A DNA stretch of 64,000 bases from Gammaproteobacteria bacterium (GCA_011523505.1 WTGP01000006.1:1-64000), one strand, 5' to 3'. Counted from the stretch's first letter, positions 5,913-60,537 are shown. Notes: a model not told the origin generated them from the letters alone. Translations and numbers: made by a program.

Positions 5913-8096
5913 ATGAAAAAACCGCATCACATTCTCTCCACACTGTTGTGCGCGTCGCTTGCCGCCGCAATTTCCCCGACCGGGGCGTTCGCCAAGGAAG
6001 GCATGTTCACTCCGGAGCAGATACCGGGGATCGCGGGGGACCTGCGCGCCACCGGGTTGAATCTGGACCCGGCAACGCTGGCCGACCTGACCGCGTTCCC
6101 GATGGGGGCGGTCATTTCGCTGGGCGGCTGCACCGCCTCGTTCGTCTCGCCGAATGGCCTGGTGGTCACCAATCACCATTGCGCGCGCGGTTCGGTGCAG
6201 TTCAATTCCACCAGCGAGAACAACTATCTCGAGAACGGCTTTCTCGCCGCCTCGATGGCCGAAGAGCTCCCGGCCGCTCCAGGATCGCGCGTCTACGTCA
6301 CGCTGCAGGTGGACGACGTCACCGAGCGGGTGACCGGCGGACTGGACCCCGCGCTGGAGCCGCGCGAGCGTTTCGCGAAGATCGAGCAACGCCGCAAGGC
6401 CCTGATCGGCGAATGCGAGTCGGAACCCGGCTACCGCTGCCAGGCCGCGTCGTTTTTCGGCGGGCTGCAATACAAGCTGATCAGGCGTCTGGAGATTCGC
6501 GACGTACGCATCGTGTATTCGCCGGCCGACGCCATCGGCAGGTACGGCGGCGACATCGACAACTGGCGCTGGCCGCGTCACACCGGCGATTTCGCCTTCT
6601 ACCGCGCCTATGTAGGCCCGGACGGCAGGCCCGCCGACTATGCGGAAGAAAATGTCCCCTATTCGCCGCCCCACATTCTCGAGGTGTCCGCCGGCGGGCT
6701 GGAGAACGGCGATTTCGTGATGGCCATGGGTTACCCGGGAAGCACTTCGCGTTACGCCCGGCTCGCCTCCGTGAGGCAGACCTTCGATTGGCAATATCCC
6801 GAGTTCGTCCGCTTTTTCTCCGACTGGATAGCGACGATCGAGGCCGCCGCGCCGGAAGGCAGCGATGCCCGCATTCGCTATGCATCCAGGCTGGCGCAGC
6901 TGAACAACGTGCTCAAGAACCTCAAGGGCCAGATCGACGGCGCGCGCCGCAACGACCTGGTCGGGCGCCGGGCGCAAAGGGAAGCGGAACTGAACGAGTG
7001 GATCGCGGCCGACCCGCACCGGATGATGCTGGGCCAGGCGATCGGGGAGCTGGACGCGCTCTCGGAGGAACGGGCGGCGGAGGCCAAACGCAGCTATTGG
7101 TACGGCAATGCGCTGCGGCCCCAGCTATTGGGCGCGGCGCAACGCCTGTACCGTCTGGCGCACGAGCGCACCAAGCCGGACGCGGCGCGCGAGAGCGGTT
7201 ACCAGGAGCGCGACATGGCGATGCTCCGCCAGCGCATGAGCGTTATCGACCGCCGCTATGACCCGGCGGTGGACAAGGCCGAGTGGATGCTGTTTCTCAG
7301 GGGCTATCTGGCCCAGCCCGCAGACATGCGCATCGAGGCGCTGGACGAGGCCATGGGCCTCTCGCCCGAATTGAGCGACGAGGAACTTTCGGAAAAGCTC
7401 GACGGGTACTACGAAGATACGGTCCTGAACAGCCTGGATACGCGCCTGGCGCTCATGGACGCGTCACCCGAAGAGCTTGACGGCCATGCCGATCCCTTCA
7501 TTCGTCTGGCGGCGGCGCTGCACGAGACGCAGATGGCGCGGGAAGAGGCCGGCAAGGTCCGCAGCGGACGGGCCAACCTGCTCAACCCGCAGTACATGCG
7601 CGCCATCATCAGCTGGCAGCAGTCGCGGGGCCATGCCGCCTACCCGGACGCGAACTCCACGCTGCGGGTGACTTACGGCACGGTAATGGGCGGATCGCCG
7701 GCCGACGGACTTCTCTACGAGCCGTTCACGCGCCTTGAAGGCATCCTGCAGAAGGACACGGGCGAGGATCCGTTCAACTCGCCGGCCGCGCAGCTCGACC
7801 TGATCCGCGCGGACGACTACGGCGACTACTACCTGGATTCCATCGGCTCCGTGCCGGTCAATTTCCTCTCCGACCTCGACTCCACCGGCGGCAATTCCGG
7901 CTCGGCCACGCTGGACGCCGACGGCAAGCTGGTGGGGCTGCTGTTCGACGGCACGCTGGAAAGCGTCAATTCGGACTGGGACTTCGACCCGGACATCACG
8001 CGCACGATCCACGTGGACACGCGCTACATGCTCTGGGTCATGGAAAAAATCGACGGCGCCCAGGCGCTGATCGACGAAATGACCATCGTCCGCTGA
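5913..8096 (+). CDS. S46 family dipeptidyl-peptidase (DPP7/DPP11 type)
   Basis: A 727-residue exported serine peptidase with a signal peptide ending near AFA (about residue 27). S46 enzymes remove dipeptides from peptide N-termini in the periplasm. The catalytic His is in VVTNHHC (about 88-89), the Asp region is DIDNWRWPRHTGDF (about 213) and the Ser is in GGNSGSATL (about 661). Six residues into the following LVGLLFDG strand there is Gly in the FDG context, as in DPP7 with broad hydrophobic preference, rather than the Arg of Asp/Glu-specific DPP11; that reading is inference from alignment by eye. The length fits the family (700-720). It stands alone, followed by a hairpin. Confidence 0.93.
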   Translation: MKKPHHILSTLLCASLAAAISPTGAFAKEGMFTPEQIPGIAGDLRATGLNLDPATLADLTAFPMGAVISLGGCTASFVSPNGLVVTNHHCARGSVQFNSTSENNYLENGFLAASMAEELPAAPGSRVYVTLQVDDVTERVTGGLDPALEPRERFAKIEQRRKALIGECESEPGYRCQAASFFGGLQYKLIRRLEIRDVRIVYSPADAIGRYGGDIDNWRWPRHTGDFAFYRAYVGPDGRPADYAEENVPYSPPHILEVSAGGLENGDFVMAMGYPGSTSRYARLASVRQTFDWQYPEFVRFFSDWIATIEAAAPEGSDARIRYASRLAQLNNVLKNLKGQIDGARRNDLVGRRAQREAELNEWIAADPHRMMLGQAIGELDALSEERAAEAKRSYWYGNALRPQLLGAAQRLYRLAHERTKPDAARESGYQERDMAMLRQRMSVIDRRYDPAVDKAEWMLFLRGYLAQPADMRIEALDEAMGLSPELSDEELSEKLDGYYEDTVLNSLDTRLALMDASPEELDGHADPFIRLAAALHETQMAREEAGKVRSGRANLLNPQYMRAIISWQQSRGHAAYPDANSTLRVTYGTVMGGSPADGLLYEPFTRLEGILQKDTGEDPFNSPAAQLDLIRADDYGDYYLDSIGSVPVNFLSDLDSTGGNSGSATLDADGKLVGLLFDGTLESVNSDWDFDPDITRTIHVDTRYMLWVMEKIDGAQALIDEMTIVR

Positions 8097-8127
8097 TCCC
8101 GGCCCGGGTTCGCCGGAAAAAGCTCAA

Positions 8128-8153
8128 CCGGCCCCCCGCCCGCCGGGGGCCGG
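8128..8153. terminator. Strong GC hairpin between S46 peptidase and ATP-grasp genes
   Basis: A perfect 9-bp inverted repeat (CCGGCCCCC / GGGGGCCGG, 8-nt loop) starts 31 bases after the peptidase stop and ends 13 bases before the ATP-grasp start. No U-tract follows; instead ATACAAT comes next, which could be a -10 element but would place the transcript start almost at the ATG. It is either a weak terminator or a leader structure. Confidence 0.35.
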
Positions 8154-8166
8154 ATACAATGCCGGC

Positions 8167-9654
8167 ATGCCGGGAGGGCGGCAACTTGACGGCAGCGGCG
8201 AACAGGCATCGGCCCGGTCGCGGCTGTTCGCGAACTACGAGGTTCGCCCCGAGTTCTACGACGAGATGTTCGACGACGACGGCGCGCCGCGCGCGCATTG
8301 CCGAAAGCTCTACGAAACGCTCAACCGGATGCCGGCCGAGGACATCGCCGCGATGCAGGAACTGGCCGAGCGTTCTTTCCTGCACCAGGGGATCACCTTC
8401 GCCGTGTACGGCGAAGAGGGGGCCCAGGAGCGGATCATTCCGATCGATTTTCTGCCCCGGCTGATCGCGGCCGCGGAGTGGGATTTCATCGAGCGCGGGC
8501 TGAAGCAACGGCTCAAGGCGCTGAATCTGTTCCTGGCCGACGTGTACGGCCCGGGAAGGATCCTGTCCGACGGCGTGGCGCCCGTGGACCTGGTGCGCGG
8601 CTGCCCGCAATACCGCATCGAAATGCGCGGCGTCGAGGCCCCGCATGGCGTGTACGTGGCATTGTGCGGAACCGACCTGGTGCGAACCAACGAGGGCTTC
8701 AAAGTTCTGGAGGACAACCTGAGGGTGCCATCCGGCGTGTCCTACATGCTGGCCAACCGGCGCGCGCTCAAGGGCAGCCTGCGCGGCGTGTTCCGGCGCC
8801 ACCACGTTCGCGGCATCGGGCACTACGGGCAGCTGCTGCGAAAGACGCTCGAGGAGCTTGCGCCGCACGGCGTGTCCGATCCCTGCATTGTTCTGCTTAC
8901 GCCCGGAGTCCATAACGCGGCCTTCTACGAGCACATGTTCCTGGCACAGGAAATGGGCGTGGAGCTGGTGCAGGGCAGCGACCTCGTCGTTCACAAGGGA
9001 TTCGTGCATATGCGCACCACCGCCGGGCTGAAGCGGGTGGACGTGATCTATCGCCGCATCGACGACGATTTCATCGACCCGCTGGCGTTTCGCGCCGATT
9101 CGCAGATCGGCGCTCCGGGGCTGTTCTACGCCTACCGTCTCGGCAACGTAACGCTGGCCAACGCGCCGGGCACGGGCGTGGCCGACGACAAGAGCGTGTA
9201 TGCCTACGTACCCGAGATGATTCGCTACTACCTGGGCGAGGAACCGCTGCTGGCCAACGTCGAGACTCACCTGTGCCGTGATCCGGAAGCGCTGGCCTTT
9301 ACGCTGGACAATCTGGACAAGCTGGTGGTGAAGATGGTGGGCGAATCGGGCGGCTACGGGATGCTGGTGGGTCCTCACGCCACGCCGGAGGAACGAAACG
9401 ACTACGCCAGGGAACTCCGCAAGAATCCGTCGAACTTCATCGCCCAGCCCACGCTCGATCTGTCGGTCTCGCCTTGCCTGTCCGAGGGGGGCGCCGCGCC
9501 GAGGCATGTCGATCTGCGGCCCTTCGTTCTGCGGGGCCGGAAAACGAGGCTGGCCCCAGGGGCCTTCTGCCGGGTGGCGCTCACGCCGGGGTCGCTGGTC
9601 GTGAATTCGAGCCAGGGCGGCGGCGGCAAGGACCTCTGGGTGCTTTCGGAATAA
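8167..9654 (+). CDS. Circularly permuted ATP-grasp protein (DUF404/DUF407)
   Basis: The 495-residue sequence matches the circularly permuted ATP-grasp type 2 family throughout: it opens with YDEMFDDDGAPRAHCRKLYE, continues with GVSYMLANRRALKG and VTLANAPGTGVADDKSVYAYVPEMI, and has the Gly-rich nucleotide segment VVKMVGESGGYGMLVGP. ATP-grasp enzymes join a carboxylate to an amine or thiol through an acyl-phosphate; the substrates of this family are not established. It is the first gene of a three-gene unit with the alpha-E protein (6-base gap) and the transglutaminase-like protein, an arrangement widely conserved in bacteria and thought to make or process a peptide. Confidence 0.92.
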   Translation: MPGGRQLDGSGEQASARSRLFANYEVRPEFYDEMFDDDGAPRAHCRKLYETLNRMPAEDIAAMQELAERSFLHQGITFAVYGEEGAQERIIPIDFLPRLIAAAEWDFIERGLKQRLKALNLFLADVYGPGRILSDGVAPVDLVRGCPQYRIEMRGVEAPHGVYVALCGTDLVRTNEGFKVLEDNLRVPSGVSYMLANRRALKGSLRGVFRRHHVRGIGHYGQLLRKTLEELAPHGVSDPCIVLLTPGVHNAAFYEHMFLAQEMGVELVQGSDLVVHKGFVHMRTTAGLKRVDVIYRRIDDDFIDPLAFRADSQIGAPGLFYAYRLGNVTLANAPGTGVADDKSVYAYVPEMIRYYLGEEPLLANVETHLCRDPEALAFTLDNLDKLVVKMVGESGGYGMLVGPHATPEERNDYARELRKNPSNFIAQPTLDLSVSPCLSEGGAAPRHVDLRPFVLRGRKTRLAPGAFCRVALTPGSLVVNSSQGGGGKDLWVLSE

Positions 9655-9660
9655 CGCCGC

Positions 9661-10644
9661 ATGCTCGCGCGCAACGCCAGCGGCCTGTACTGGATGGGGC
9701 GCTACCTGGAGCGGGCGCGGCATGGATGCCGGCTGCTTCGCGACCAGCTCGCAACCATGGAGGACCGGCCGGTCGAGCAGATTGCGGACAGTTGGCGGCG
9801 GCTGTACCTGGCCGCCGGACGCTCGCCGGTGGGCGGCCACATCGAATCGACCGGCGACGAGGAGGACTTCATGGCGGCGGACGCCTATACGCTCGCCGAC
9901 GATCTGACATTCGCGCGCCATAACCCTGACTCCATCCGCAACTGCGTGGCCGCCGCCCGCGAGAACGCGCGCCAGATCCGCAACGTGATCGGCAGCGACA
10001 TGTGGTCGTGCCTGAACGTTACCCATCTGGACCTCCGCGGCCTGGAAATCCAGGCCATCTGGACCGCGCAGCCGGGCGACTTCTTCGCCCGAGCGGAGGA
10101 CAACATCCGCGCCTTTTGGGGAATTGCGGAAAGCGCGATGTACCGCGACGGCGGCTGGCATTTCCTGGTGCTGGGACGCTTCGTGGAGCGGGCCCAGCTG
10201 CTGGGCGCCCTGGTGGAAGCGCATATCGCCGTGTTCCCGTCAAGGAAGCGGGACAGCGAATGGGAATGGCGCTCGCTGCTTGCGGTGTGCGAGGCCCACT
10301 TCGCCTACCGCCACCTGTACCCGCTGGAACACCGGCCGGACCGCATTATCGATTTCCTTGTAGCCGACGCGCGCCTCGCGCATTCCCTCCGCCATTCGCT
10401 GCTCATGATCGCGGAATCGCTCAAGGGAGTGTCCGGAAGCCAGGCGCGGCAGGCCGAGGTTGCAAGGCGCGTCCGGCGCATGGCCGGATGGATAGACGGC
10501 GACTGGCCCCGGCGCGATCCGAATGACGACGAGGCTGCGCGCGCGGCCCTGGCGCGCCTGCGTCAATCCTGCCGGCAACTGCACGAAGATATCGCGACCG
10601 CCTTCTTCTCCATCGAAATCCAGGACCAGGACGGCCGGACGTGA
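9661..10644 (+). CDS. Alpha-E domain protein (DUF403)
   Basis: A 327-residue, largely helical protein with the hallmark N-terminus LARNASGLYWMGRYLERARH and repeated Arg/Glu-rich helices such as VVLGRFVERAQLLGAL-like segments. The alpha-E family has no proven activity and almost always sits between an ATP-grasp gene and a transglutaminase-like gene, as here. Its stop codon overlaps the GTG start of the next gene (GTGA), so the two are translationally coupled. It probably acts as a partner or scaffold of the ATP-grasp enzyme (inference from context only). Confidence 0.92.
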   Translation: MLARNASGLYWMGRYLERARHGCRLLRDQLATMEDRPVEQIADSWRRLYLAAGRSPVGGHIESTGDEEDFMAADAYTLADDLTFARHNPDSIRNCVAAARENARQIRNVIGSDMWSCLNVTHLDLRGLEIQAIWTAQPGDFFARAEDNIRAFWGIAESAMYRDGGWHFLVLGRFVERAQLLGALVEAHIAVFPSRKRDSEWEWRSLLAVCEAHFAYRHLYPLEHRPDRIIDFLVADARLAHSLRHSLLMIAESLKGVSGSQARQAEVARRVRRMAGWIDGDWPRRDPNDDEAARAALARLRQSCRQLHEDIATAFFSIEIQDQDGRT

Positions 10645-11534
10645 CACGCCACCACGTGGAGCATGTCTCCGAATTCAGCTACGGGGCGGCGGTGCATGGA
10701 AACCTGATGCTGCTTCGGCTGCATCCGAGCGAAGAATTCGGGCAGCGGGTCCTGTCGTTCCGACTGAAAGTCCGGCCCTCCGCCGACTGGGTGGCATGCG
10801 AGGACGCCTTCGGCAACCGGTGCCATCTGCTCAGCATTCATCGCCGGCACCGCCACGCCACGGTGCGCGCCAGCAGCGAAGTGGAAACAGACGCCGGGCC
10901 GCCGCTGCCGGAACGCATCGACGCGACCGCGTGGAGTGCGCTTTCGGACCCGGGCGTGTCACTGCGCTACTGGGAGTTCCTGGCGCATGGCGGGTTGGCC
11001 CGGCCGGGACCGGCGCTTGACGCGTTCGTTGAACAAAACGGTATCCGGCGCGGCGAGGACCCCCTGAGTTCCCTGCTGACCCTGTCGTCGAGACTCCACG
11101 ACGTGCTGCGCTACGAGCCCGGCAGCACCGCGGTGGACTCGCCCATCGAACGTATTCTTGCAACCGGCAGGGGCGTTTGCCAGGACTACGCCCACGTGAT
11201 GATCGCCATTGGCAGAACCTGGGGCATCCCCGGCCGTTACGTGTCGGGCTATCTCAATCCCGGTGCGGCTTCGGGCGAACGGCCCTTGCCGGCCGCCAGT
11301 CATGCCTGGGCGGAATTTCTTCTTCCGGAACTCGGATGGGTGGGGCTTGACCCCACCAACGGGGCCGCGGCCGGCGCGGGGCACATCCGCACCGCCGTCG
11401 GGCGCGACTATAACGATGCCGCGCCTACCCGGGGGACCGTTTTCGGCGGTGGCGAGTCCCGCCTGGGCGTCAAGGTCACGGTGAGGGAATCAGGCCCCGG
11501 GGCGAACGCCCGCGGTCCCCAGGCGGCTCAATAA
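10641..11534 (+). CDS. Transglutaminase-like cysteine protease family protein
   Basis: The 297-residue product has the bacterial transglutaminase-like N-terminal beta region (RHHVEHVSEFSYGAAVHGNLM) and then a catalytic core with Cys in GRGVCQDYAHVMI (about 182), His in ASHAWAEFLLPE and Asp in GWVGLDPTNG, the expected Cys-His-Asp triad. Members hydrolyse or crosslink peptide bonds. It starts with GTG at 10641 inside the end of the alpha-E gene. It is the last gene of the trio; the next gene (mpl) is convergent one base away. No Anbu-type proteasome homologue follows, unlike many related loci. Confidence 0.92.
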   Translation: MTRHHVEHVSEFSYGAAVHGNLMLLRLHPSEEFGQRVLSFRLKVRPSADWVACEDAFGNRCHLLSIHRRHRHATVRASSEVETDAGPPLPERIDATAWSALSDPGVSLRYWEFLAHGGLARPGPALDAFVEQNGIRRGEDPLSSLLTLSSRLHDVLRYEPGSTAVDSPIERILATGRGVCQDYAHVMIAIGRTWGIPGRYVSGYLNPGAASGERPLPAASHAWAEFLLPELGWVGLDPTNGAAAGAGHIRTAVGRDYNDAAPTRGTVFGGGESRLGVKVTVRESGPGANARGPQAAQ

Positions 11535-11535
11535 C

Positions 11536-12906
11536 TTATACGGGGCGGCGCCGCTCCAGCTCGGCGGCCAGCAGGCCGGCGGCGCCCGAAGCGCCGCTGT
11601 TGCTCATGAACACGACCGCATCGCCTGCCTCGGCAGCCGCGGCGGCGGCGCACGCAGCCTCGGCGGCGTCAGCGCACACCGTGACATGATCGTGGCCGGC
11701 AAACGCGGCTTCCGGATCCCAGTCCAGGCTTGCGGACGGAGCCAGCCAGGCGTGGGCGGCGCCTTCCAGCGCGCCGGGCAGTTTCGCCAGGTGCGCGCCG
11801 GCCCGCATGCTGTTGGAAGCCGGCTCGAAGACCGCCAGTACGCGGCGGTAGTCGCCGGACAGCGCTTCGAGTGTCGCCCGTATCTCCGTGGGGTGGTGGG
11901 CGAAGTCATCGTACAAGGCGACGCCGGAATCGCCGGCCGCGTAGCGGCCCAGCAATTGCAGGCGCCGCGCCGGCGGGACGAAAGATTCGAGTGCAGCGCA
12001 GGCCCGCTCGACTGGCACGCCAGCGGCATGCGCGGCCGCCACCGCGGCCAGTGCGTTGGACAGATTGTGCGCGCCAGGCAACGCCAGATCGCAATACGCT
12101 TCGCCGGACTGCCCCGAAATTTTCGCGCGAAAGCCCTCGATACGTTCCGCGCGCCAGTCCGCCCCGGATCCGGGATCGACCGAAAAGCGCTCCACCGGAC
12201 TCCAGCAACCCTTCTCAAGCAAACCGGAGATGTTGACGTCCGCGCCGTTGACGATCAGCCGTCCGGCGCCCGGGGTGCGCCGCAACAGCAGGTGAAACTG
12301 CCACAGCACCGCTTCCAGGCCATCGTAGATATCGGCGTGATCGTGCTCGATATTGTTGATGACGACCGTGCCGGCACGGTAGTGGAGGAACTTGGCGTTC
12401 TTGTCGAAGAACGTGGTGTCGTACTCGTCGCCCTCGATGACGAAATGCCGCCCGCCCCCCAGCCGGGCGGTGCGCTCGAAGTTTCCCGGCGCGCCGCCGA
12501 TCAGAAAGCCGGGGTCCAGGCCCGCCTCGTGCAGAATCCACGCGGCCATGCTCGCGGTGGTGGTCTTGCCGTGCGTGCCGGTAATCGCGATCACCTCGCG
12601 ATCGCGCAGCACCTGTTGGCCGAGCCATTCGGGACCCGACATGAACTTCAGGCCGCTGTCCAAAAGCGCCTCCACGATCGGCATGCCGCGCGACATCACG
12701 TTGCCTACCAGCACGAGGTCGGGCCCGGCGTCCAGTTGGGCGGGATCGAAGCCGACCACGGGTTCGATCCCCAGTTCCCGCAGGCGCGTGCTCATCGGCG
12801 GCCAGGCGGCGCGATCGGCGCCGGTGACTTCGTGGCCGAGTTCGCGGGCCAGGGCCGCAAGCCCGCCCATGAAGGTCCCGCAAATGCCGAGAATATGAAT
12901 ATGCAT
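11536..12906 (-). CDS. mpl: UDP-N-acetylmuramate:tripeptide ligase (murein recycling)
   Basis: A 456-residue Mur ligase. Mpl attaches recovered L-Ala-D-Glu-meso-Dap tripeptide to UDP-MurNAc in the cytoplasm, saving wall peptides. The N-terminus MHIHILGICGTFMGGLAALA is the typical Mpl dinucleotide-like fold; ATP binding is at ITGTHGKTTTASM, Mg/substrate residues in VIEGDEYDTTFFD, and the ligase signature DDFAHHPTEI with SNSM-like motif EPASNSMRAG near the C-terminal domain. The start at 12906 overlaps the previous gene's stop as TGATG. It is co-transcribed with the membrane protein and adk. Confidence 0.95.
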   Translation of the reverse strand: MHIHILGICGTFMGGLAALARELGHEVTGADRAAWPPMSTRLRELGIEPVVGFDPAQLDAGPDLVLVGNVMSRGMPIVEALLDSGLKFMSGPEWLGQQVLRDREVIAITGTHGKTTTASMAAWILHEAGLDPGFLIGGAPGNFERTARLGGGRHFVIEGDEYDTTFFDKNAKFLHYRAGTVVINNIEHDHADIYDGLEAVLWQFHLLLRRTPGAGRLIVNGADVNISGLLEKGCWSPVERFSVDPGSGADWRAERIEGFRAKISGQSGEAYCDLALPGAHNLSNALAAVAAAHAAGVPVERACAALESFVPPARRLQLLGRYAAGDSGVALYDDFAHHPTEIRATLEALSGDYRRVLAVFEPASNSMRAGAHLAKLPGALEGAAHAWLAPSASLDWDPEAAFAGHDHVTVCADAAEAACAAAAAAEAGDAVVFMSNSGASGAAGLLAAELERRRPV

Positions 12907-54916: not shown

Positions 54917-55717
54917 ATGGACGTGGGTTTTATCGGCGTCGGCACGATTACCGAGGCGGTGGTCACGGGCCTTTGCGAGGCGGAGGTCCCCGGTGTTTCG
55001 ATTCTCCTGTCGCCCAGGAGCGTCGATCGCTCGCGCAGGTTAAGCGAGCGCTATGCCGCCGTGCAGGTGGCTGCCGATAACCAGCAGGTGCTGGACCGTT
55101 CGGAGCTGGTATTCCTCGCCGTGCGTCCGCAGGATGCCGCCGATGTTCTTGGCGCGCTCCGCTTCCGGCGGGACCTCAAGGTCGTGAGCTTTATCGCGAC
55201 GATAAGTTCCGGGGAAATCGAGCGGCAGGTCGGCCCCGCCGCGTTCCTCGGCCGCGTCGCGCCGGTGCCCCCGGTGGCGCGGCGCAGCGGCCCGATTGCG
55301 ATGTGTTCGCCGAACCGGGAACTGGCCGGATTCCTTGACCCCCTGGGGACCGTGATTGAAGTTTCGGACGAGGCGCAGCTCGACGCCTTCTTCTCGGTTT
55401 CGGCGCTGATGGCCCCCTATTTCGAGCTACTGGAGTCCGTATCGGCCTGGCTGCGCGCCCAGGGCGTCGATCCGGTGGAAGCGGACGCCTATACCGGCGC
55501 GCTGTTCCGCGGCATAGCCCAAAAATCGACCCAGCCGAAAGGCGAGGGCTTTGCCGACCTGGTCGAGGAGCACGCGACCCGCGCCGGAATCAACGAGCAA
55601 CTCCGCCGCGAGTTGATTGCCGCCGGGCTATACGACCGGATCCAGGCCGGCCTCGACCTCATACAGTCGCGGATGCAGGGCCGCGCCACCCTGGACGACA
55701 CCCTCGACCTCGAGTAG
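54917..55717 (+). CDS. P5C-reductase-like NAD(P)-binding protein
   Basis: A 266-residue protein that begins like ProC (VGFIGVGTITEAVVTGLCEA; later LVFLAVRPQDAADVL and KVVSFIATISSGEIERQ). The usual MPN-containing loop of P5C reductase is replaced by RVAPVPPVARRSGPI, and the conserved C-terminal dimer domain with its TVxGSGPAY sequence is not evident. It is therefore a divergent relative, possibly with a different imino or keto substrate. Start at 54917, 4 bases after dapE, so it may be co-transcribed with dapD-dapE. A hairpin repeat starts 3 bases past its stop. Confidence 0.7.
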   Translation: MDVGFIGVGTITEAVVTGLCEAEVPGVSILLSPRSVDRSRRLSERYAAVQVAADNQQVLDRSELVFLAVRPQDAADVLGALRFRRDLKVVSFIATISSGEIERQVGPAAFLGRVAPVPPVARRSGPIAMCSPNRELAGFLDPLGTVIEVSDEAQLDAFFSVSALMAPYFELLESVSAWLRAQGVDPVEADAYTGALFRGIAQKSTQPKGEGFADLVEEHATRAGINEQLRRELIAAGLYDRIQAGLDLIQSRMQGRATLDDTLDLE

Positions 55718-55803: not shown

Positions 55804-56568
55804 TCAGAACAGGTCCCAGGGGTAGGACATCTCCGAATCGACCGCGGCCAGCACCTTGCCGGTCGTCGCGTTGTCGTCGAGCGCCTCGACAATCAGGCCG
55901 GCCAGGTCGCTGCGGTTGATGATGCCTTCGGCCTCGCGGCTCTCGCTCAGGTAACCGTTGCCGGTGGGCTCGTTCGAGCGGAGCGCGCCGGGACGGATGA
56001 TCGTGTAGTCCAGGCCGCTGGCCATCAGGTGGTCTTCGGCCTGCGTCTTCAGCGGCAGGATTTCGCGCAGGAACACGCGGGCCAGCCAGGGCGCCGCATA
56101 GTGGCTGTCGCCCGAGCCGATGCTGGTCACCAACACCATCCGCTGCACGCCGGCCGCCTCGGCGGCGTCGAAGATATTGCGGTTGCCGAGGTAATCCGGG
56201 CGCGGATCGCAACTGAAGCAGCCCACCGTCGTGATGACCGAGGTGTAGTCGCCGCCGTCGAAGGCCGCCTGCACGCTTACCATGTCCAGCGCGTCGCCAA
56301 CGGCGTAGTTCACGCCCAGCGGCTCCAGCCCGGAACGGTCCGAGGACGGGCGGACAAAGGCCGTGACCCGGTCGCCCCGTCCCGCCAGGATTTTCGCGAC
56401 CTCCAGCCCCGTGTTCCGGGTGCCGCCGAACAGCAGCACATGGTGACCGCCCTCGGGGGCCGCGTCGGCCTCCATTTCGAAGACGGGGTACTGGGTGGTT
56501 CGGAAGGACAGCAAGACCAGAACGGCGATGACCGCGAGGACTATGAGAATAATGCGTTTTTTGGTCAT
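55804..56568 (-). CDS. Membrane-anchored NmrA-like NAD(P)-binding protein
   Basis: A 254-residue atypical SDR. An N-terminal hydrophobic anchor (RIILIVLAVIAVLVLLSF) is followed by the nucleotide loop HVLLFGGTRNTGLEVAKILAG (about 42-62) and VGDALDMVSVQAAF, DYTSVITTVG. Catalytic Tyr-x3-Lys is absent, as in NmrA-type redox sensors and epimerase-like proteins. A membrane-tethered Rossmann protein facing the cytoplasm is unusual. It follows the beta-propeller gene by 27 bases on the same strand. Confidence 0.75.
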   Translation of the reverse strand: MTKKRIILIVLAVIAVLVLLSFRTTQYPVFEMEADAAPEGGHHVLLFGGTRNTGLEVAKILAGRGDRVTAFVRPSSDRSGLEPLGVNYAVGDALDMVSVQAAFDGGDYTSVITTVGCFSCDPRPDYLGNRNIFDAAEAAGVQRMVLVTSIGSGDSHYAAPWLARVFLREILPLKTQAEDHLMASGLDYTIIRPGALRSNEPTGNGYLSESREAEGIINRSDLAGLIVEALDDNATTGKVLAAVDSEMSYPWDLF

Positions 56569-56595
56569 GAGAAGGCCTCTTTCGGGCGAATCCGG

Positions 56596-57609
56596 TCAGC
56601 CGGGAAACTGGGCCACGCCGGAGAGCGAGTTTGTTTGCCCGATGTTGTTGCTTCGGACGACTTCCCCGGTTTCGCGGCTGATGATCACGACCTCGCCGGT
56701 GAAGAAGTTGCCCACGATGATTCCCGCGCCGTCCACCGTCGGCCCCGAGGCCGCCCACCCGGGACTGCGCATGTCGTAATAGCGGAGCGTTTCGCCTGAG
56801 TCCTTGTCGAGCACCACCAGGCCGTTGCCGGTGCTGATCAGCAGCGATCCGTCGAGCATCGGCATCAGCGTGAGGACCATGAATACGTTCTCGTCGTCCT
56901 CGAACACCCTGAGGTCCGGCAACTGCCGGTCGTTGGCCAGGTCGTACTGCATGACCCGGTTGCCGGTCTCGGACAGATAGACCATTCGCGTGTCGTCGTC
57001 GGTCAAAACGGTCGATGTCACACCGTGGATGCCCACGACGCCGCCATGCGTGTCCGAATGAAATTCCCTCAGCAGCCGGGCATCGGGACTGAACTTGAAG
57101 ATGTTGCCGTCGCCGATCACGTCGCGGCCGGTCAGCAGATTGAACACGGTCGTGTTGGTGGGAATGGTCGTGTTGGGACCCTGCAGGTGCTCCCCGAAAT
57201 ACAGGCTGCCGTCGCGGGCGAAGGTCACGCTGCTCAAACTGCGCTCAGAGAACCTGCGCACCGGCTTCTGCACCCCGTCCGGGCCGATTTCAACCACCGC
57301 CGGCGTGCCCTGAGCAAAGGCCCACAGTGTGCCGTCCGGGGCGAAATTAAGGCCGCCGATCTTGTGCGTGGTGCCTTTCGTGTAGAGCTCGCCCTTGAGG
57401 TCCAGTTCCGCGTCGTACTGGAAGATGCGCCCGGTGCCCATGTGATCGTCCGTGGGATGGTCCATGATGGTGGACGCGACGAAGATGTCGCCCTTGACGA
57501 AGGGCTGAAACGTGTTGACCCGCTCCCCGTCGCCCCACGCCAGGCTCGTCGCCAGGAGCAGCGCCGGCGCCAATGCCCGGGCCCTCGAATACGGATTGCG
57601 GCTCGGCAT
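56596..57609 (-). CDS. Exported beta-propeller protein (NHL/SMP30-like)
   Basis: A 337-residue protein with a signal peptide (ARALAPALLLATSLAWG) and repeated strand motifs typical of a propeller: IGGLNFAPDGTLWAFAQG, LSSVTFARDGSLYFGEHLQG, GDGNIFKFSPDARLLREF, VMQYDLANDRQLPDLRVFED, LMPMLDGSLLISTGNGLVVLD, and GPTVDGAGIIVGNFFTGEVVIIS. No catalytic motif is recognised. Its ATG overlaps the stop of the cytochrome/GLUG gene (TAATG), so the two are produced together and may act as a complex (inference). Confidence 0.72.
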   Translation of the reverse strand: MPSRNPYSRARALAPALLLATSLAWGDGERVNTFQPFVKGDIFVASTIMDHPTDDHMGTGRIFQYDAELDLKGELYTKGTTHKIGGLNFAPDGTLWAFAQGTPAVVEIGPDGVQKPVRRFSERSLSSVTFARDGSLYFGEHLQGPNTTIPTNTTVFNLLTGRDVIGDGNIFKFSPDARLLREFHSDTHGGVVGIHGVTSTVLTDDDTRMVYLSETGNRVMQYDLANDRQLPDLRVFEDDENVFMVLTLMPMLDGSLLISTGNGLVVLDKDSGETLRYYDMRSPGWAASGPTVDGAGIIVGNFFTGEVVIISRETGEVVRSNNIGQTNSLSGVAQFPG

Positions 57610-59501
57610 TACATTTCCCCCATGCCGTCTGTGTCCCCGGAAGGGTATCCTGCCTCAAAGGTACAGCGGATTACCGGAAACTCGCCGGAACCGCGGAAGT
57701 CCCAGATTCGATTGTCCGGCACGCGCTCGTCGGGATCGATAAAGCCGTTGCCGTTGGCGTCGCAGTAGGCATCGATGAGTCCCAGGAAATCGCCGGGCCG
57801 CGGCGCCCATCCAGTTTGTTCGGCGGTCAGTGCGCCCAGGTCTGATGCGCCTGCGGAATAGGACATCGCGGACCAGAAGTTGCCGTCCTCCTCGCCCTCC
57901 ACCATGAACCCGGAAATTCCTCCGGAAGCGCCCTCGCTCGATACCGGCCCCGCGGCATAGCTCATGCGCACGCTGCCGTTGTTGCGCCCCACCAGCCCGC
58001 CCACGGCATCGCCGCCGAAAACAGCGCCGGCAGCGTAACTGTTGCGCACCTCGCTTAAGGAGTTGAACCCCACGAGGCCGCCGATATTGCTCCCGTCACC
58101 CTCGACCGCCGCGATCGAAAAACTGTTGCGCACCTTGGCGTCGGTGTTCATTCCAACCAGGCCGCCCAGGTCGTTGCCGCCGATCACCTGGCCCGTGGAA
58201 TAGCTGCTCAGGACCAGGCCGAAGGTGTTCAGCCCCACCAGCCCGCCCAGGCCGCGGCTGCCCGATACTTCGGCGTTCGACCGGCTGAAATAGACGCCGC
58301 CGCGCACGTCGCCGATCAGCCCGCCCACCGCCTGGTTGCCCGAAACCGTGCCGGCCGACTCGCTGTAGGCCACCAGGCCGCCGCTTCCGCCCACCAGAAC
58401 GCCGAGCGCCAGGTCGCCGGCCACCTCGCCCTCGGCGCGGCAGCGGTAAACCATGCCGAAATTGCTGCCCACCAGCAGGGCCACGCCGCCGCGGCCGATC
58501 ACGACCGCATCCTCAAGCACCAGGTTGCGAACGGTGCCCTGCGCGCCCAGAACGCCGATCAGGCCGATCCCGCTGCCCCCGGGTTTGGAGATGCGCAGTC
58601 CGCGAATCGTGTGTCCCCCGCCGTCGATTACGCCCTGAAATCCAAAGCGGTCCAGCGTCACCATGCAGTTTCCCGCCGGGCCGCAATCGCCTATCGGCTC
58701 GAAGTTGGGGACCGTGGAGGCGTCGAGGTCGCGCGCCAGGCGGTAATTGCGCGCCATGCGTACGGCGCGCTCCAGCGTGGTGGACTGGCCTTCGCCGCCG
58801 CCGAGATTGCCGATGGCCTCGAGCTGCCGTATGTCGCAGATTTCGTAGTAGCCGTCTGCGTCGCCGTCGACGACGAACTCGTCGGCATCGTCCGGGGCGG
58901 CATCGTAGGCGTCCGCCAGCCCGTCGCCGTCGCGGTCGGAGTCGGCGCTCCCGGACAGGCCCGCGCAGGCCGCGTCGCCGACCTGGCCGGGAGCCTGCGC
59001 CGCATCGCGGATGGCCTGCGCCAGCATGCTGTTGTAGCGGGCGATATGGTCGCTGTGATCGAACTTGGGCGGTCCCGCCGGCCCGCGGGGCGGACCTCCC
59101 TGTTGGGCGCCCGCGGGCGGTCCGGCGGCGGCCGGCGCCCCTTCCTGCGTGCGCTCCCATATCTCCCGAGGCGTCAGGTAGCCCGGCTGGCTGGCGTAAT
59201 AGGCGGCGATGTCCTCGAGATCCTGGTCCGTCTTGCCGAGCACCGATCCGCGCATGAGCGAGTGCGTGCGCCCGCCGTCGCGGTATTCCTTCAGCGAAAG
59301 GTAAAGGTAGCGCTCGTGCTGCCCGCCGATCTTCGGATTGATCGGCGACGGACTGTAACCGTCCTGCCCATGACAGGCGAAGCACTCCCGGGCCAGGCGC
59401 TTGCCCCGCTCGATGTCACCCTTCGCCCACGCCGATCCGGAACCGCCCGTCGTCAGGAATAGCGCCAGCATCAAGGCCGAAATCGAAGGTAGTCTTGCCA
59501 T
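57609..59501 (-). CDS. Cytochrome c / GLUG-repeat fusion protein
   Basis: A 630-residue exported protein. Order: signal peptide to about 26 (ALFLTTGGSGSAWA); a class I cytochrome c domain with haem motif CFACH (40-44) to about 115; a Pro/Gly/Ala linker; a calcium-binding-like acidic stretch DSDRDGDGLADAYDAAPDDADEF (about 200); then a beta-helix with several GLUG repeats (GGLIGDVRG, GGLVGLNTF, GGLVGMNTD, GGLVGFNSL, GGLVGRNNG, each followed by a short variable piece and SYS/SYAAG). GLUG repeats are normally found in adhesins; combining them with a haem domain is unusual. The start at 59501 gives the signal peptide. Confidence 0.8.
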   Translation of the reverse strand: MARLPSISALMLALFLTTGGSGSAWAKGDIERGKRLARECFACHGQDGYSPSPINPKIGGQHERYLYLSLKEYRDGGRTHSLMRGSVLGKTDQDLEDIAAYYASQPGYLTPREIWERTQEGAPAAAGPPAGAQQGGPPRGPAGPPKFDHSDHIARYNSMLAQAIRDAAQAPGQVGDAACAGLSGSADSDRDGDGLADAYDAAPDDADEFVVDGDADGYYEICDIRQLEAIGNLGGGEGQSTTLERAVRMARNYRLARDLDASTVPNFEPIGDCGPAGNCMVTLDRFGFQGVIDGGGHTIRGLRISKPGGSGIGLIGVLGAQGTVRNLVLEDAVVIGRGGVALLVGSNFGMVYRCRAEGEVAGDLALGVLVGGSGGLVAYSESAGTVSGNQAVGGLIGDVRGGVYFSRSNAEVSGSRGLGGLVGLNTFGLVLSSYSTGQVIGGNDLGGLVGMNTDAKVRNSFSIAAVEGDGSNIGGLVGFNSLSEVRNSYAAGAVFGGDAVGGLVGRNNGSVRMSYAAGPVSSEGASGGISGFMVEGEEDGNFWSAMSYSAGASDLGALTAEQTGWAPRPGDFLGLIDAYCDANGNGFIDPDERVPDNRIWDFRGSGEFPVIRCTFEAGYPSGDTDGMGEM

Positions 59502-59599: not shown

Positions 59600-59815
59600 T
59601 TGCCTAGCGTACGGGTAAAGGAAAACGAAGTCTTTGATGCGGCGTTGCGCCGCTTCAAGCGCGCCTGCGAGAAGGCCGGCATCCTGGCCGACGTGCGCCG
59701 CCGCGAGTTCTACGAGAAGCCGACTCAGGTCCGCAAGCGCCAGAAGGCCGCCGCCGTCAAGCGCCAGGCCAAGCGCACCAGCCGCGAACAGAACCGCCGC
59801 CGCCGCCTCTACTAA
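59600..59815 (+). CDS. rpsU: 30S ribosomal protein S21
   Basis: A 71-residue protein near identical in pattern to other S21: [42 protein letters not shown], ending in basic NRRRRLY. The start codon is TTG at 59600, judged from family length (71) and GAGGA upstream; no ATG is in a suitable place. In related bacteria rpsU, dnaG and rpoD form one operon; here a toxin-antitoxin pair on the other strand separates rpsU from dnaG. Confidence 0.96.
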
Positions 59816-59854: not shown

Positions 59855-60247
59855 TCAGTTCGCGCGGTCGAGAAACATTCGCGGTGACCAGACCTCGACC
59901 GACCCGTATCGCGCCTCGGTGAAATCGCGTGCGTTTCCCGTGATCAACGTCGCGCCGCCGGCCTCCGCAGTCGCAAGATAGACCTCGTCGTCAGGATCGC
60001 GAATACCGAACACCACATTGGCCGGCTCGACAATAGCCGCCAAGCGCTCGATCTCGCTGATGACGAAAGTCAAAGTCTCTCTGTGTAGCCTCTGGCTTGG
60101 CCGCTCAGCGATGGCTTTGTATTCGGACAAGATTGGTCTGGACAAGACGATTTCGTGTCCTCGGGCCACCCGGTTGATGACTTCGCGGCATGTGCCGTCA
60201 ACTCTCGCCGCCGACACCAGAACATTGCAATCCAGGACAACCCTCAT
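59855..60247 (-). CDS. PIN-domain toxin (putative ribonuclease)
   Basis: A 130-residue PIN-fold protein of the toxin branch. Acidic metal ligands appear in order: Asp in RVVLDCNVLVSAA (6), Glu in LSRPILSEYKAI (about 42), Asp in IRDPDDEVYLATAE (about 87-90) and Asp in LITGNARDF (about 108). Such toxins cut RNA when their antitoxin is lost. The ATG overlaps the antitoxin stop (ATGA). Opposite in direction to rpsU and dnaG. Confidence 0.87.
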   Translation of the reverse strand: MRVVLDCNVLVSAARVDGTCREVINRVARGHEIVLSRPILSEYKAIAERPSQRLHRETLTFVISEIERLAAIVEPANVVFGIRDPDDEVYLATAEAGGATLITGNARDFTEARYGSVEVWSPRMFLDRAN

Positions 60248-60537
60248 GCCCCGCGGCTGCGGCGTTCACGGCGCGATCGGGCTATGTCGTCGATCGCGTC
60301 GCGCATGATTTCGTCCTCAGATCGCCCGCGATCCGCGGGCGATGGCTGAGCCTCAGCAAATTTCGCGGCAATGCGGTCGGCCGCGGCGACTCGGTCCACC
60401 ACCTCTTTGGGCTTGAACAAAATACCGTCGCCGATAAGGGTTGCCTCCATGATGTCACCCTCGCGTAGGTCAATATCTTTGCGAAGCTTGGCGGGGATAG
60501 TTACCTGGAATTTCGGTTTCACGGTTACAAGCGCCAT
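60244..60537 (-). CDS. AbrB/MazE-type antitoxin
   Basis: A 97-residue partner of the PIN toxin. The N-terminal swapped-hairpin DNA-binding domain is clear: ALVTVKPKFQVTIPAKLRKDIDLREGDIMEATLIGDGILFKPK. The remaining acidic/basic helix (ADRIAAKFAEAQ..., EDEIMRDAIDDIARSRRERRS) is expected to wrap around and block the toxin. It probably represses its own promoter through the palindrome immediately upstream. Coupled to the toxin by ATGA. Confidence 0.87.
   Translation of the reverse strand: MALVTVKPKFQVTIPAKLRKDIDLREGDIMEATLIGDGILFKPKEVVDRVAAADRIAAKFAEAQPSPADRGRSEDEIMRDAIDDIARSRRERRSRGA

Follow-up and report, generated by a model that had tools for sequence, protein, structure and literature searches.

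Related systems and layout of the locus

Cytochromes c4 and c552 (6q2u, 1etp, 1cno) are relatives of the N-terminal domain of the first protein considered here, which is homologous to one half of cytochrome c4 and shares its CXXCH motif and Met ligand. Cytochrome c4, however, is a free two-haem carrier, whereas the present protein has a single haem site and continues into an acidic linker and a beta-helix of GLUG repeats. Such repeats, forming a right-handed beta-helix, are also found in proteins of the IgA1-protease type (PF07581; 6xja, 3n6z); unlike these, the protein analysed here has no protease or cell-wall anchor domain, and it has instead an N-terminal cytochrome and a partner beta-propeller. 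This propeller resembles those of SMP-30/gluconolactonase and virginiamycin B lyase in its conserved acidic and His residues and in the weak profile matches found for relatives, but it scores below the family thresholds, is exported and is tied to the cytochrome–GLUG partner. In NirS and quinohaemoprotein alcohol dehydrogenase a c-type haem domain and a propeller occur together in the periplasm, the propeller being eight-bladed and the cofactor d1 haem or PQQ; at the present locus the propeller is of a different family and a beta-helix lies between haem and propeller. The third protein shares the NAD_binding_10 Rossmann fold with ChuY/ShuY and biliverdin reductase B (5guy, 5ffq, 1hdo), from which it differs in being membrane-anchored at its N-terminus and in keeping a CxxC pair; among the flanking genes scanned, none for haem uptake was seen.

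The three genes lie on the minus strand of the window, by which we mean the whole analysed stretch of 64,000 nucleotides, with the following features:

54917-55717, plus: pyrroline-5-carboxylate-reductase-like (proC-like) gene, on the far flank of the three genes
55804..56568, minus: NAD(P)-binding protein, 254 aa, membrane-anchored, optional part (Pfam NAD_binding_10 and ChuY profile match)
56497..56556, minus: N-terminal hydrophobic segment of this Rossmann protein, residues 5-24 (homologue comparison)
56596..57609, minus: beta-propeller, 337 aa, exported (ORF, AlphaFold fold match and orthologue clade)
57607..57611, minus: TAATG stop/start overlap (sequence)
57609..59501, minus: cytochrome c–acidic repeat–GLUG protein, 630 aa, exported (ORF, Pfam and 28 homologues)
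57612..57866, minus: its C-terminal Cys- and Asp-containing tail, residues 546-630 (homologue alignment)
57867..58739, minus: GLUG right-handed beta-helix region, about residues 255-545 (Pfam Glug and family profile)
58851..58943, minus: acidic Ca2+-binding-like repeat, residues 187-217 (conservation in aligned homologues)
59187..59420, minus: cytochrome c4-type monohaem domain, residues 28-105 (Pfam Cytochrom_C and family profile)
59253-59255, minus: axial Met83 (invariant among homologues)
59370..59384, minus: haem attachment motif CFACH, residues 40-44 (in 28/28 homologues)
59424..59501, minus: probable Sec signal peptide, residues 1-26, ending SAWA-KGD (read from sequence; hydrophobic leader in aligned homologues)
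near 59600, plus: rpsU with a TTG start, on the opposite flank of the three genes

As the sequence-only reading of this DNA had noted, the stop of the cytochrome–GLUG gene overlaps the propeller start, base 57609 being common to the stop TAA and the ATG (1-base overlap). All three genes proved to be under purifying selection (dN/dS 0.09-0.23 against genus relatives), and the three ORFs are thus real coding genes.

Domains of the three proteins

The Pfam search of the cytochrome–GLUG protein returned Cytochrom_C at residues 30-101 (E 6e-7) and, in the same protein, three stretches of Glug (PF07581; E 2.8e-13, 49.7 bits against a curated cut-off of 20.5). Compared with solved structures, the family profile matched cytochrome c4 6q2u in the haem domain (E 8e-38) and IgA1 protease 6xja/6xjb in the GLUG part (E 7e-8). 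The acidic stretch, DSDRDGDGLADAYD...DGDADG, gave no Pfam model at E<=0.1 and resembles the thrombospondin-3/EF-type Ca2+ motif; D189, D191, D193, G194, D212 and D216 of the repeat are invariant in the alignment of homologues. The sequence-only reading had proposed that a haem c domain, an acidic calcium-like stretch and GLUG repeats occur in one exported protein, and this was borne out by the ORF, the signal peptide and the Pfam matches, the acidic part being recognised by sequence resemblance. The composition is not peculiar to the window: the cytochrome, the acidic repeat and GLUG form one protein in the homologues read, and the acidic motif, together with CXXCH and the Met ligand, was present in all 28 of them as well as in the window, so that the possibility, raised beforehand, of GLUG homologues lacking the haem motif was not realised. 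A single CXXCH was found per protein in the homologues read, not the two haem sites of cytochrome c4, and the domain is therefore c4-like rather than a cytochrome c4. From the invariant haem ligands a redox role of the protein appears likely. The tail pattern YCDxxGxGxI...W.F....P.IRC is present in most aligned homologues and missing in genus g23. The AlphaFold model of the full protein, computed with seven close sequences as input, was poor (pLDDT 41).

For the second protein a beta-propeller fold was supported by the AlphaFold model (pLDDT 73, pTM 0.74), which in structure comparison matched known propellers with Z of 22-25 over about 250 residues, six-bladed ones standing on top. The Pfam search gave no family over threshold for its sequence; the match to PQQ_2 (E 5e-4, 20.3 bits against a cut-off of 27.6) does not place it in the BamB/PQQ_2 family. 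The residues D54, D55, H56, R61, H82, E140, E214, D223 and N301 are kept both in the unit propellers, i.e., those encoded next to a cytochrome–GLUG gene, and in their paralogues, and the family seems to possess a conserved polar site, which would suit catalysis or ligand binding. Unit propellers carry leader peptides, whereas most paralogues start without one, as cytosolic proteins do. The genomic contexts of the paralogues also differ: some follow an alpha/beta hydrolase gene in family f1, others are located near SDR and Rieske oxygenase genes. A run of genes for a Ser/Thr kinase, a PP2C phosphatase and a cytosolic propeller recurs in family f15 (L156:2448-5191, L168:1148-3932 and similar loci), its propeller being a paralogue of that in the window. 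An assignment as PQQ-dependent sugar dehydrogenase was rejected, since no PQQ-enzyme family exceeded its threshold and the conserved residues are common to the cytosolic paralogues.

The third gene encodes, as had been read from the sequence, a membrane-bound NAD(P)-binding protein: it matched NAD_binding_10 (PF13460; E 8.5e-36, 124 bits against a cut-off of 27.2), which places it among the atypical SDRs, and has the N-terminal hydrophobic segment. Its family profile matched best ChuY (5guy, E 2e-32), with ShuY in second place and a weaker match to biliverdin reductase B, so the protein may be described as a ChuY/BVR-B-like atypical SDR, profile similarity alone not making it a member of the ChuY family. 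Haem-utilisation genes (radical SAM genes of the chuW/hutW type) were not recognised in the part of the flanking genes scanned. The start KKR precedes the hydrophobic segment, and a basic N-terminus followed by such a segment is found in 7/7 homologues. Since a basic start, a hydrophobic segment and an acidic stretch follow one another, the positive-inside rule suggests a periplasmic position of the Rossmann domain, both in the window and in close relatives. Such an orientation would sit badly with the use of NAD(P)H, a cofactor that cells do not normally supply beyond the inner membrane. Within 55807-56568, a CxxC pair (C117, C120), kept in all seven homologues, would suit a periplasmic disulphide.

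Linkage, fusions and distribution

Within the genus the first two genes of the unit were found in 8/9 genomes, G006 being without the locus. In the order, 29 of 296 genomes contain a homologue of the cytochrome–GLUG protein matching beyond the haem domain (8 in f1, 20 in f15 and 1 in f3), some of these being split at contig ends. The best 25 propeller matches among the 296 genomes (E<=1.3e-151) all adjoin a cytochrome–GLUG gene, and the next matches are paralogues located elsewhere. This gap in scores is not independent evidence by itself, because the search profile contained unit propellers; in the tree, however, 26 unit-linked propellers form one clade (support 100/99) apart from the mostly cytosolic paralogues, and the clade provides evidence for the partnership that is independent of the score gap. 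Within the genus, rpsU and the proC-like gene on the flanks are for the most part conserved too, while outside it the flanks change and the cytochrome–GLUG/propeller pair stays, hence the pair is not just shared synteny. The linkage of the two genes is conserved and not due to chance; three families of the order show it, as does a distant MAG, contrary to the possibility, allowed for in the sequence-only reading, that the genes are unlinked elsewhere. In four g20 genomes (G072, G152, G155, G158) the cytochrome–GLUG gene has no propeller next door, and the haem protein may accordingly work without it. No dehydrogenase of a known type was consistently linked to the unit. A molybdenum hydroxylase, considered as a partner in g20 (upstream genes of 773 and 163 aa), was ruled out, these genes encoding PBP1b and a TPR protein.

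The initial view of three genes as one unit was upheld for the cytochrome–GLUG and propeller genes, which are linked and in places fused, and not for the Rossmann gene, which adjoins the unit in f1 except G001, in genomes of g38/g45 and in L087, and is not beside it in g15, g20 and g23. The Rossmann gene is thus an optional third part, and the core consists of the cytochrome–GLUG protein and the propeller.

Two kinds of fusion were observed. In G176 (L098:5749-8187, minus strand) the cytochrome, acidic, GLUG and propeller parts form a single frame of 812 aa, and in its sister G130 (L108) GLUG and propeller share one frame with the same junction, a frame break preceding the upstream haem part. 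At the junction (..HATGTVTVTHVNTVQPFVKGDI..) the beta-helix passes directly into the first propeller strand, without a linker or a propeller leader. The second kind, found in G161 (L091) and G010 (L109), is a propeller with a C-terminal NTF2/SnoaL-like domain (SnoaL_2 weak, E 1e-3). Since both kinds argue that the fused parts work together, the beta-helix–propeller fusions support a single functional assembly that the first two proteins would form. Separate NTF2-like genes, mostly with leader-like N-termini, were located near the unit in L087, L089, L095, L101 and L107, and a second cytochrome c gene was found at most two genes from the unit in three g38 genomes (G093, G161, G149) as well as near fused genes. 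Several genomes also encode, near the unit, another group of exported SnoaL-like proteins, part of them with a twin-arginine-like leader (L090:8895-9581, L091:1594-2364, L103:5405-5977).

Outside the order, no cytochrome and GLUG in one protein was found among the matches listed for samples of the class (369 genomes) and the phylum (398 genomes), in which the top candidates per genome were scored; the matches there were c4-type cytochromes or GLUG regions of large proteins, and the plasmid matches listed were GLUG-only. In these samples the combination is therefore restricted to this order and the divergent MAG L087. A literature search on GLUG with cytochrome c, which covered part of the journals, yielded no description. 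The early impression of novelty is thus upheld in part. In another class, a frame of 1787 aa (L175, G737:C16) matched the GLUG part with E 2e-53 without a haem domain and may be related to whatever gave rise to the beta-helix part.

The MAG L087 (JAQWRV010000013.1), named Rhodospirillaceae, carries at 7378-11694 an NTF2-like gene and the whole three-gene unit. Its ribosomal protein S7 is, as we take it, alphaproteobacterial, and the MAG probably belongs to that class. Its DnaG is 42% identical to that of the window, against 51-53% for other families of the order, whereas its unit proteins are 68, 76 and 70% identical to those of the window and closer to them than the f15 proteins. The GC content of the unit and its flanks is 52%, compared with about 66% in the window, and both resemble the rest of the L087 bin. 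Because DnaG is divergent while the unit proteins are close, the simplest reading is that the unit would have moved as a whole block to the L087 lineage, a residual chance of misbinning being left.

Proposed function and alternative readings

Our preferred reading, to which we give a probability of about 0.45, is that of an operon for an envelope redox assembly, with the propeller as the substrate-binding or catalytic part. The cytochrome–GLUG protein would be exported and take one c-type haem (His/Met, cytochrome c4 type), and a presumably Ca2+-stabilised acidic linker would join this haem head to the rigid GLUG beta-helix. The dedicated exported propeller is predicted to dock on the far end of the helix, in the periplasm or at the cell surface, and to bind or convert the substrate there; against an enzyme role counts the fact that no enzyme family matched it at threshold. 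The haem head may then connect the assembly to the pool of periplasmic cytochromes by electron transfer, and the anchored NADP-type reductase and/or the NTF2/SnoaL-like protein added in some lineages would probably serve the same compound. An electron-transfer or contact-sensing complex had been suggested from the sequence; of these, electron transfer is based on a single haem domain of c4 type, and nothing directly supports contact sensing. More tentatively, the locus may represent a new class of envelope redox assembly, a cytochrome on a Ca2+-stabilised beta-helix with a dedicated propeller cap, spread as a block between bacterial classes, with which marine, often host-associated bacteria oxidise or sense an extracellular compound. 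If true, such bacteria would have a new way of mounting a haem carrier at some distance within their envelope. The linkage, the natural fusions and the apparent block transfer lead to the specific prediction that the cytochrome–GLUG protein binds the propeller.

Alternatively, the proteins could form a surface scaffold or adhesin, with GLUG and the propeller attaching to a ligand of the host or matrix, and with a cytochrome head that is structural or redox-sensing and carries no respiratory electrons. Surface proteins, IgA1 proteases among them, do contain GLUG beta-helices, the isolate names of several named carriers suggest MAGs from sponges or corals, and binding propellers (nidogen, LRP6, Kelch) prevail among the propeller's fold matches, although no function was assigned from fold matches to Keap1, LRP6 and similar proteins. 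We regard this explanation as doubtful, given that the Cys, His and Met for haem binding do not vary in any homologue, a constancy for which a head of purely structural role would have no need, and that the Pfam search detected neither a surface-sorting nor an outer-membrane domain.

A periplasmic catabolic set is also conceivable, if unlikely: the propeller would have hydrolase, lactonase or lyase activity (SMP-30/Vgb-like), its small-molecule substrate would also be handled by the anchored SDR and the NTF2-like protein, and electrons from an oxidation step would end on the cytochrome protein. Consistent with it are weak SGL/Vgb_lyase matches in relatives, the SDR profile with its matches to ChuY and other reductases, and the D/H/E/N set shared with cytosolic paralogues, some of which stand beside the hydrolase, SDR and Rieske oxygenase genes mentioned above. 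All enzyme-family matches of the propeller are nevertheless below threshold (for SMP-30/gluconolactonase, PF08450, the window propeller gave no match and that of L091 reached 15.9 bits against a cut-off of 26.3), the paralogues following the kinase–PP2C pair suggest regulation over catabolism, and the periplasm normally offers no NAD(P)H.

That the neighbours are merely co-inherited without functional meaning, as the conserved flanks within the genus might suggest, is highly improbable, being contradicted for the first two genes by their persistence beside changing flanks, two kinds of fusion, one clade of dedicated propellers and the apparent joint transfer to a distant MAG; for the Rossmann gene it is possible.

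As a separate observation on the rpsU flank, genes for a MazE-type antitoxin (60244-60537) and a PIN-domain toxin (59855-60247) lie on the minus strand between rpsU and dnaG. Since rpsU and dnaG are only about 265 bases apart in G008, the pair looks like an insertion in the lineage of the window.
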